Shown here in pieces: positions 24,455 to 27,471 of a stretch of 50,562 bases of DNA. How positions within the stretch are numbered: position 1 is the first letter of the stretch; each line of letters opens with the position of its first letter. The stretch is from NCBI GenBank assembly GCA_013152655.1, contig JAADFW010000006.1, positions 1 to 50,562 on the forward strand, read 5' to 3'. Both the position numbers and the translations under genes were made by a program. The notes under the pieces were generated by a model. That model was not told the DNA's origin. It searched no databases and saw only the letters and a program-made list of their open reading frames with translations. This DNA is from Chlorobiota bacterium (lineage in GTDB: Bacteria; Bacteroidota; Bacteroidia; Bacteroidales; B39-G9).

Positions 24455-24570
24455 TATATAGATATATAAATAACTTTACGCTTATTAATGCAACTGTGAT
24501 TAATGATGCTGAAAATCAGTTGGTAAACGGCAATAAATCATACTCTTTTTAAGCTATAGATTTATGCTAT

Positions 24571-24604
24571 GTACGGTTTTGTACAACTATATACTTTAGC
24601 GTAC
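24571..24604. promoter_or_regulatory. Phased GTAC motifs upstream of the small secreted protein gene
   Basis: GTAC at 24571, GTAC at 24581, ATAC at 24591 and GTAC at 24601 stand exactly 10 bases apart, one helical turn, and two looser GTAT copies follow at 24616 and 24626. They lie about 70-115 bases before a sigma-54-like promoter, where enhancer-binding activators usually sit. Function is inferred. Confidence 0.4.
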
Positions 24605-24672
24605 ACTTTTTGCCTGTATAAATGTGTATATTTTATTGTGTAAATATTACATTATTAATTAGTTATAATAAA

Positions 24673-24688
24673 TGGCATAAGTATTGAT
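24673..24688 (+). promoter_or_regulatory. Sigma-54-like promoter
   Basis: TGGCATAAGTATTGAT fits the -24/-12 consensus TGGCAYrnnnnTTGCW except for one base (TTGA instead of TTGC). It ends 23 bases before the ATG at 24712, leaving a short leader. No TAnnTTTG box is apparent at the proper place for this gene. Confidence 0.5.
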
Positions 24689-24711
24689 AGATGTGACGTA
24701 AACAAAATATC

Positions 24712-25092
24712 ATGAAAAAAATAATAACATATCTGATTTCTTTTTTACTCATTTCAGGAATGAGTATTCAAATAACAAATGCCAGGCATTTATCAGATAA
24801 TAATCCAAAGTGTAGATTAAGTAAATCTATAAAAATTAATAAAATTAAAAATGTATCTACTCTGAATAGTACAAATGAGTTTGCAATGTGGAATTTTGAT
24901 GAATTTGAAAGCGAGCTTCCTGTAACAGACTTAGCTGCAATAAATTTCTTGCCAGAAATAAGCTGGATGTTTCCGGCTGTTGAGGCAGAATTAGAAGTTA
25001 CTGATTTAATGCCGATTAGCAAAACTATTACCAATTGGAAGAATGTTGAAGAAGAACCGGAACTTAAGGTGTTAGATTTGGTAATAAAGTAA
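24712..25092 (+). CDS. Small secreted protein with three W...ELxVxDL repeats
   Basis: 126 residues, no family recognised. A signal peptide (about 1-24, ending ITNA-RH) suggests export. After a basic stretch (33-50) come three repeats of 24-25 residues, each starting with Trp (60, 85, 109) and holding an acidic ELxVxDL core: ESELPVTDL (66-74), EAELEVTDL (91-99), EPELKVLDL (115-123). No T9SS domain or lipobox is visible. The gene stands alone with its own terminator and a sigma-54-like promoter, so it is probably made under specific conditions. Expression as a real protein is supported by the signal peptide, the repeat periodicity and the flanking signals. Confidence 0.7.
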   Translation: MKKIITYLISFLLISGMSIQITNARHLSDNNPKCRLSKSIKINKIKNVSTLNSTNEFAMWNFDEFESELPVTDLAAINFLPEISWMFPAVEAELEVTDLMPISKTITNWKNVEEEPELKVLDLVIK

Positions 25093-25142
25093 TAATAGAA
25101 AAATTAAAATAGTTAGTAAATTTTCATATAATTTAGGTTAAT

Positions 25143-25179
25143 AAAAAAAGGGATTTCCATTGTGAAATCCCTTTTTTTA
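25143..25179. terminator. Terminator after the small secreted protein gene
   Basis: A stem of about 15 bp (AAAAAAAGGGATTTC and its complement) with a short CATTGT loop and T-run. Symmetric A/T flanks let it serve both convergent genes (24712-25092 and 25194-25709). Confidence 0.88.
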
Positions 25180-25193
25180 TCAATTAAAACTTG

Positions 25194-25709
25194 TTATTGT
25201 TTAATATTCAAATATTTTCCGGTATGTTTTATTAAATTATTAAAGAAAAGAATGTTTAATTCTAACATTTTATTTTGTTCATAATAAATACTAATAAAAC
25301 TAATTCCCTTTTCAATAGTCCATTTTCTAATTAAACTACCTTTTATTGATGTCTTATGATCTTCATTATCCATCACGGTTTTTTCATAGTCATCCATTCC
25401 GTAAATACCAAAAACCTGATCAACAACATAACTTGCTTTTTTTCTGTTAATTTCAGTTCCTTTTGCAAATAACTTTACATTAACCGGGTTACTTCCCGTA
25501 ATGTTATCTTTATCAAAAAAAACTCTGAACTGCACTGTATCAAAAACATTTAATTCAAGTTTAGGAAGTTTCTTTTCATAATCAATCATAAACATTCCCG
25601 GAGTGTCCTGACTATCTACTTCCTCATAGTCATCTTCCTGAAAAAAAGTAGTAAGGTCGTAATTTAAAAGATCAAGAATTGACCTATTGTTGTTATCTAT
25701 ATTATTCAA
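25194..25709 (-). CDS. Hypothetical protein, possible TTG start
   Basis: 171 residues, no family recognised. No signal peptide, membrane segment or catalytic motif is seen. Features: an acidic N-terminal third (FFQEDDYEEVDSQD), then alternating hydrophobic strands (KLELNVFDTVQFRVFFDK, VNVKLFAKGTE, RKWTIEKGISFISIYYEQ) suggesting a mixed alpha/beta or beta fold. The frame has no ATG near its beginning; TTG at 25709 gives the longest product and the first internal ATG would remove about 38 residues. It lies between a shared terminator and the symporter gene on the same strand, 100 bases from it, and may be part of that transcript. Confidence 0.65.
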   Translation of the reverse strand: MNNIDNNNRSILDLLNYDLTTFFQEDDYEEVDSQDTPGMFMIDYEKKLPKLELNVFDTVQFRVFFDKDNITGSNPVNVKLFAKGTEINRKKASYVVDQVFGIYGMDDYEKTVMDNEDHKTSIKGSLIRKWTIEKGISFISIYYEQNKMLELNILFFNNLIKHTGKYLNIKQ

Positions 25710-25809: not shown

Positions 25810-27471
25810 TTATAAATGTCCAAATTCTTTATAAAAATCAACCCAATATTTTTTTAATGTATTTTTCATGTCTTTACGCAGCAATAATATTCCTATCAGG
25901 TTTGGCAATGTCATAAATGCAATAGTAATTCCTGATAAAGTCCAAATTATGGTTGTGTCAGTAAATGATGCAAGGAAAAAGCCAATAACATATATTATTC
26001 TGTAATATATTAACGATTTTGTTCCAAATAAGTAGGTCATAGCGCGCCCCCCGTAATACGACCATGATATAGCTGTTGAAAATGCAAATAAAAGCAGTCC
26101 GATTGAAACAATATATTGCCCCCAATTGCCTAAAAAACTGCGTTTAAAAGCTTCTGTAGTTAATGGTGCACTATGGAGCAATGATTTACCTTTTATTTGT
26201 ATGTTATTGTTGGTTATTACACCATTATCAACATTTAAATCCCCATTATAAAAATTGTCGTTTTGAAAAACATGGACATTTTCAGCAACCGACCTTGCAT
26301 TTATTATCACAGGTGCGTTTTCTATTATGCCTTTATTTACTGAAAGAGTACCTGTATAGTATGGAATATTTTCTTTTCCTAATATGTAGTTCTTTAACCT
26401 GGTTTTATTTAATTGTCCATTGTTATCATGTTTTAAATCAATTATTCGCATATCGGTAAATTGAAAAGTATTTTCATATTTTTCTTTCCATACACCTGAA
26501 GATAATAATACTAATCCGGTTAGCATACAAATAATTATAGTGTCAATAAATGGTTCCAGTAATGCAACCAAGCCTTCTGAAACAGGTTCGTGTGCTCGTG
26601 CAGCGGCATGTGCAATAGGAGCAGAACCCTGCCCGGCTTCATTTGAAAATAAACCACGATTAACACCTCTGTTGAAAGCAAAAGCAAAACTGGCTCCCAA
26701 AAAACCACCTGTTGCTGCTGTTCCGGTAAAAACATCTTTAATAACAGCAAATAACGAAGGAATAATGTTTTCGTAATTATAGAAAATAACAGCAAAAGCA
26801 CCAATAAAGTAAATAATAGCCATGGTAGGAACTAATTTTTCAGTAACTTTTGCAATTCGTTTTATTCCGCCAATAATAACAAAACCAAGTATTACAGCCA
26901 GAACGCCACCGGTAATTATCTGTTTTATTCCAAAAGTTGCAAAAACCGAATTAGAAATACTATTTACCTGCGGCAGGTTCCCGGTTCCAAAAGACGATAA
27001 AACGGTTGCGATTGCAAAAATGGCAGCGAGCCAGCGCATGTTTAATTTATTTTTCATATAATACATAGGCCCTCCTGAAATAGTTCCGTCTTCGGCAACT
27101 TCACGATATTTATGCGAAAGTGTAACTTCAACAAATTTGGTTGTCATGCCCAAAAGGGCAGTTACCAACATCCAGAATAAAGCCGCAGGGCCACCAAGAT
27201 GAATAGCCAGTGCAACTCCGGCAATATTGCCTGTGCCAACAGTACCTGATAAAGCTGTTGCTAAAGCCTGAAAATGCGATGTATCACCTTTGTCATCTTT
27301 TTTATCGTATTTTCCTTTTACAATTCTTATAGAATGTGCCAGATACCTGAATTGAGGAAATTTTAAATAAATAGTAAAAAACAATCCGGTACCCAATAGG
27401 AGAAGAACAAACCATTCACTACTACCTATGTATGAATCAATTACTTGTAGAAAATTATTTATTGTATGCAT
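25810..27471 (-). CDS. Alanine/glycine:cation symporter (AGCS family)
   Basis: 553 residues. AGCS hallmarks: [21 protein letters not shown] (67-87), [67 protein letters not shown] (267-291) and [15 protein letters not shown]. The family imports alanine or glycine with sodium across the inner membrane. About 100 residues (330-433) are inserted between two membrane segments, probably an extracytoplasmic domain; family members without it are about 450 residues long. It lies downstream of tex on the same strand, separated by a tandem-repeat tract. Confidence 0.94.

Follow-up and report, generated by a model that had tools for sequence, protein, structure and literature searches.

In a 50,562-nt stretch of the genome of a Chlorobiota bacterium of the order Bacteroidales (contig JAADFW010000006.1; the whole stretch is hereafter called the window), we analyzed a gene for a 126-amino-acid secreted repeat protein together with the DNA upstream of it. 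We consider it highly probable that this gene is under a conserved sigma-54 switch, with a dedicated pair of enhancer-binding protein (EBP) and kinase and a site shared with them. The protein and its repeats, the layout of promoter and site, their conservation, and the link to a regulator and an exporter are all supported at the level of sequence.

A predicted sigma-54 promoter paired with an upstream site

The elements on which this reading depends are as follows.

24569..24588 (+): upstream activator site (UAS) 1, ATGTACGGTTTTGTACAACT, a GTAC-N6-GTAC palindrome that matches the order-wide TGTWCG-N4-CGWACA
24591..24604 (+): further half-sites at 10-bp steps, ATAC (24591-24594) and CGTACA (GTAC at 24601-24604), forming a second palindrome, ATAC-N6-GTAC
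24673..24687 (+): predicted -24/-12 (sigma-54) promoter TGGCATAAGTATTGA, 102 nt downstream of the first half-site
24712..25092 (+): coding sequence of the 126-amino-acid secreted repeat protein, with paralogues at loci L002 and L043 and an orthologue in a sister genome

A first-pass annotation of this DNA had proposed a -24/-12 promoter with one mismatch, ending 23 bases before the start codon, and a ladder of GTAC/ATAC motifs as the binding place of an enhancer-binding regulator. The single mismatch of TGGCATAAGTATTGA to TGGCAY-N5-TTGC is confirmed, but 24 nt separate its end from the ATG. The ladder is present as described, with GTAC at 24571, 24581, and 24601 and ATAC at 24591, exactly 10 bp apart, and its fixed distance to the promoter is kept in the paralogues, in the sister genome, and in many families. 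However, rather than a plain ladder of GTAC motifs, this enhancer site is better described as a TGTWCG-N4-CGWACA palindrome with extra half-sites one or two helical turns further on.

Taken alone, the promoter pattern does not reach significance (3 matches against 5.5 expected in the window), and the genome contains many GTAC triplets when two mismatches are tolerated. Both observations fit the view that the upstream motifs are chance occurrences in an AT-rich intergenic region and that a standard housekeeping promoter drives the gene. Because the -24/-12 match by itself lies within chance, it gains significance only jointly with the upstream site and through conservation. We scored held-out DNA with a two-part matrix (UAS plus promoter) trained solely on 14 repeat genes from other genomes. 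The site at 24569-24687, with 28.8 bits in total and 16.3 bits for its UAS part, is the sole match of at least 12 bits in the 50-kb window. This result, the absence of a TAnnTTTG box upstream of the gene, already noticed in the first-pass annotation, and the fact that different genes and families maintain both the sequence and its exact spacing contradict the chance explanation, which we regard as extremely improbable.

Conservation within the genus

The layout recurs in every genus gene that we found. This genome holds one clear paralogue (L002, on G000:C132), also of 126 amino acids and with the same three-repeat architecture, whose promoter TGGCATACACATTGC is a perfect -24/-12 sequence preceded by three GTAC sites at 10-bp steps. 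In G001, the only other genus member searched, the orthologue (L042) is 50% identical, is followed by the same downstream gene, and has the promoter TGGTACATGTATTGA, and a sister-genome paralogue (L043) combines four GTAC sites at 10-bp steps with the promoter TGGCATTTGTATTGT. The last half-site lies exactly 68 nt from the TGG in all four genes, which score 17.5-28.8 bits in the held-out matrix test. A sequence profile of these proteins (A1) has members only in the two genus genomes among the 393 genomes; five other weak matches were read as spurious (three of them were inspected).

The genome also encodes the sigma factor itself (rpoN, PF04552, 186 bits, G000:C230). Of its eight perfect -24/-12 sites, five fall inside open reading frames; the remaining three lie before the paralogue, before a small gene by a hydrogenase-like gene, and before a lipoprotein-like gene, respectively. 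The second of these (L034, G000:C7:3764), placed before the small gene and a hydrogenase-like small-subunit gene, is likely another sigma-54 target. Those checks suggested with the first-pass annotation that sequence can answer, namely for rpoN, for homologues that keep the -24/-12 sequence, for further repeat proteins behind TGGCAY-N5-TTGC in the same genome, and for EBP genes, all gave positive answers: the paralogue answers both the second and the third, with its perfect copy of the promoter, and a dozen full EBP matches were found.

A likely cognate regulator

One of these EBPs stands out. It is an NtrC-type response regulator (REC-AAA+-Fis) that forms a pair with a kinase at G000:C49:8247-10977, and GTAC arrays lie between this pair and a divergent ATP-binding cassette (ABC) operon in both genus members. 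The kinase has two transmembrane helices with a very short loop between them and no periplasmic sensor domain. The divergent promoters of the C49 EBP and of six relatives (L148-L153, L158) reach 28.6-47.5 bits with the held-out matrix, and most of the remaining EBP relatives do not score. By comparison, the EBP model picked out 15 other loci in this genome, none of which exceeds 12.0 bits, and the best of 88 control loci gives 14.2 bits, two copies of the window itself being set aside.

Since the site is also found at the promoter divergent from its gene, the C49 EBP is the likely cognate regulator, and the enhancer-binding regulator postulated in the first-pass annotation has thus been given a candidate through the shared site. 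The genome has a dozen full EBP matches, and the site might instead be used by another of them, its presence at the C49 regulator reflecting cross-regulation only. This is improbable, as among the EBP loci of this genome the site occurs only at C49, and the six relatives of the C49 EBP also have it at their divergent promoters.

The same control layout across the order

With a degenerate DNA pattern for the motif E-x2-L-x-[VIL]-E-x-W-M, we found that many families of the order encode small secreted proteins in which this motif is repeated in tandem. They occur as several paralogues with varying repeat number, and none of the ten that were scanned belongs to a Pfam or NCBIfam family. Their genes share a control layout of TGTWCG-N4-CGWACA, 100-104 nt, and TTTGGCAY-N5-WTG (the -12 element being relaxed to WTG). 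In the 14 repeat genes of other genomes, the distance from the UAS to the TGG is 101-104 nt, mostly with a further half-site, although the first scan had permitted 70-140 nt; L187 and L177 also fit, at 100 and 103 nt. For two more repeat genes that had not been used in training, the matrix gives 24.1 and 40.2 bits. Across the class, the combination of GTAC array and promoter pattern is at chance level outside this genome, other lineages using GTTC/GAAC/GTCC half-sites. Two genes of family f56 (L215, L217) have a TTTGGCAC-type promoter beside a different upstream sequence, TTTAC-N6-GTAAA-like in L215 (7330-7432), which suggests that the specificity of their regulator may have changed.

The window protein shares with this order-wide family the signal peptide, the small acidic repeat build, and the geometry of UAS and promoter. 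The repeat cores differ, with EL-x-V-x-DL and an earlier W in the window protein vs the tandem E-x2-L-x-[VIL]-E-x-W-M. A profile comparison of the genus proteins with the order-wide family gives an hhalign probability of 79%. For the mature part alone, the score of 24.4 exceeds the maximum of 19.6 obtained with shuffled columns (0/150 reach it), but the probability is only 24%. On this evidence, the genus proteins are likely, but not proven, to be akin to the order-wide family.

The exporter genes of the regulon

The genes divergent from the EBP encode HlyD, an ABC ATPase, a MacB_PCD/FtsX permease, a protein of ~97 amino acids and, in some genomes, an OEP channel. This order of the EBP/kinase pair and the ABC operon was seen in L077, L078, and L207-L211. 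At the C49 locus of this genome, ATPase and permease are present; the sister genome also has HlyD, and L208 has both HlyD and OEP. In three genomes of family f63 (L204-L206), a repeat gene with its own site lies directly behind the ABC ATPase and permease genes. The ~97-amino-acid protein is conserved (MKDLxIPxPxxxxD...) and has no Pfam family; it was found in the ABC operons at L077:6558-6851, L208:5779-6078, L204:10384-10680, and L206:3090-3374.

The repeat protein and its surroundings

The following features lie within and directly behind the repeat gene.

24712..24786 (+): N-terminal Sec-type signal peptide, from the hydrophobic N-terminus; its end is approximate, at TNA/R
24889..24933 (+): repeat 1, residues 60-74, WNFDEFESELPVTDL
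24964..25008 (+): repeat 2, residues 85-99, WMFPAVEAELEVTDL
25036..25080 (+): repeat 3, residues 109-123, WKNVEEEPELKVLDL
25141..25180 (+): terminator-like hairpin, 17-bp stem with A/T flanks, -19.8 kcal/mol, z -7.4

The reading frame at 24712-25092 (+) and its hydrophobic N-terminal signal agree with the 126-residue exported protein of the first-pass annotation. The three repeats described there are also present, spaced by 25 and then 24 residues, but its formula contained one x too many: the repeats, starting at W60, W85, and W109, read W-x5-E-x-E-L-x-V-x-D-L. No Pfam or NCBIfam model matches the window protein, in line with the earlier statement that it has no recognized family, and no Rfam family was found in the window. 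In the AlphaFold2 model of the window protein, the signal peptide is the only helix modeled with confidence, and the mature repeat proteins are predicted to lack a stable fold. All mature repeat proteins are acidic (pI, the isoelectric point, 4.1-4.8), with about one W per repeat.

A hairpin similar to the one listed above follows the orthologue in L042. In each of the two genus members, the gene immediately 3′ of the repeat gene is convergent with it and encodes a conserved 171-amino-acid protein without Pfam family (window 25194-25709 (-); L042:1584-2105 (-)). A Na/Ala symporter gene lies nearby in the window (25810-27471), and such a gene also adjoins a repeat gene in L194 and L195, from two genomes of family f39, in an arrangement that differs from that in the window.

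A tentative model for the regulon and for the role of the repeat protein

Combining these observations, we tentatively propose an order-wide sigma-54 peptide system, in which one EBP/kinase pair would co-induce a MacAB-type exporter and lineage-specific, unstructured W/E-repeat proteins that the pump may secrete as signals, toxins, or decoys, with repeats that turn over fast and a control region that stays fixed. Envelope stress, for example from membrane-active peptides, would be sensed by the intramembrane-type kinase, and the NtrC-type EBP paired with it would bind TGTWCG-N4-CGWACA ~100 nt upstream of the promoter and activate RpoN polymerase at TTTGGCAY-N5-WTG. One arm of the response would be the HlyD/MacB-type ABC exporter divergent from the regulator, with a TolC-type channel in some relatives, and the other the small Sec-exported acidic W/E-rich repeat proteins, the window protein among them. 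Repeat protein and exporter may then act together in the periplasm or at the surface, the former being either ejected by the pump or able to mop up cationic amphipathic peptides through multivalent acidic and Trp contacts. Our high confidence extends to the regulatory part of this model, whereas each of these two functions is somewhat less likely than not.

The literature offers points of contact with this model. Sigma-54 control of an antimicrobial-peptide ABC permease (COG0577) in Bacteroidia is predicted independently by a computational survey (PMC12316311). According to a review (PMC5985334), pumps of the MacB type collect peptides that Sec has exported to the periplasm and expel them; MacB-like transporters that are linked to two-component systems serve to sense peptide antibiotics.

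Several results weigh against the model. AlphaFold2 gave low confidence and no confident fold for both repeat proteins modeled, which bears on any biochemical role. The kinship between the window protein and the order-wide family rests on a modest profile match, and a strict hidden Markov model of the order-wide repeat core misses the window protein. The link between repeat gene and site is not universal: in families f56 and f73 most repeat genes lack the site, as does one in f57. Finally, no HlyD or OEP/TolC gene was seen beside the ABC genes in this metagenome-assembled genome.

As to the role of the repeat protein, it could be cargo, that is, a Sec-exported periplasmic peptide ejected by the co-regulated MacAB/TolC-type pump as a signal, toxin, or surface factor. 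The control site common to repeat gene and exporter, the repeat genes directly behind ABC genes in L204-L206, the HlyD and TolC-type genes of relatives, the known ejection of such peptides, and the predicted lack of a stable fold are all consistent with this. However, MacB peptide substrates are commonly small and disulfide-bonded (PMC5985334), yet most repeat proteins have no or one cysteine, and most repeat genes lie apart from the pump genes; the cargo role is possible but less likely than not. It is also conceivable, though somewhat short of probable, that the repeat protein has a protective role in the periplasm or at the surface, as a decoy, chaperone, or signal buffer. Like the induced periplasmic proteins ZraP and Spy, it would then sequester stressors of a cationic or hydrophobic nature, antimicrobial peptides among them. 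The acidity and tryptophan content of the mature proteins, their several paralogues with variable repeat number, and the resemblance of the sensor-domain-free two-transmembrane kinase and MacB-type pump to peptide-antibiotic sensing modules (PMC5985334) argue for this role, whereas the proteins have no match to the Pfam families of ZraP, Spy, or CpxP.

Whatever the role, the proposed sigma-54 regulon connects small secreted repeat proteins, which form a widespread but unnamed family, with one particular regulator, a DNA site, and an export apparatus, and its regulation is far better conserved than the proteins themselves. A set of "hypothetical proteins" thus becomes a testable system, with a predicted site for an uncharacterized Bacteroidota EBP, which bears on sigma-54 targets in Bacteroidota and on the cargo of their MacB-type pumps.

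Comparison with known systems

The COG0577 permeases of PMC12316311 have the exporter class and the sigma factor in common with the regulon described here, and the taxa overlap; the passages of that survey devoted to them mention no repeat protein, enhancer site, or cognate regulator. Between them, the loci of the regulon encode the parts of MacAB-TolC exporters (MacB_PCD/FtsX permease, HlyD adaptor, and OEP), as assigned by Pfam, with HlyD and OEP in relatives only. Unlike in MacAB-TolC, ATPase and permease are separate genes, control is predicted to be by a sigma-54 two-component system, and the repeat proteins would be new partners. The two-transmembrane kinase with its very short loop, beside a MacB-like ABC transporter, recalls BceRS-BceAB. 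The regulator of BceRS-BceAB is of the OmpR type, whereas here an NtrC-type EBP and RpoN are combined with adaptor and outer-membrane parts in a Gram-negative setting. ZraSR-ZraP is a case of sigma-54 two-component control of a small periplasmic protein, and here, similarly, a kinase and an EBP would switch a small exported protein through a -24/-12 promoter. No sequence relation to ZraP was found; the proteins described here instead have W/E repeats, are predicted to lack a stable fold, and belong to a regulon with an ABC exporter. MacB-type pumps and two-component switches acting through sigma-54 are both already known, but in the literature searched we found no description of the repeat proteins as a family, of their enhancer site, or of the two together.
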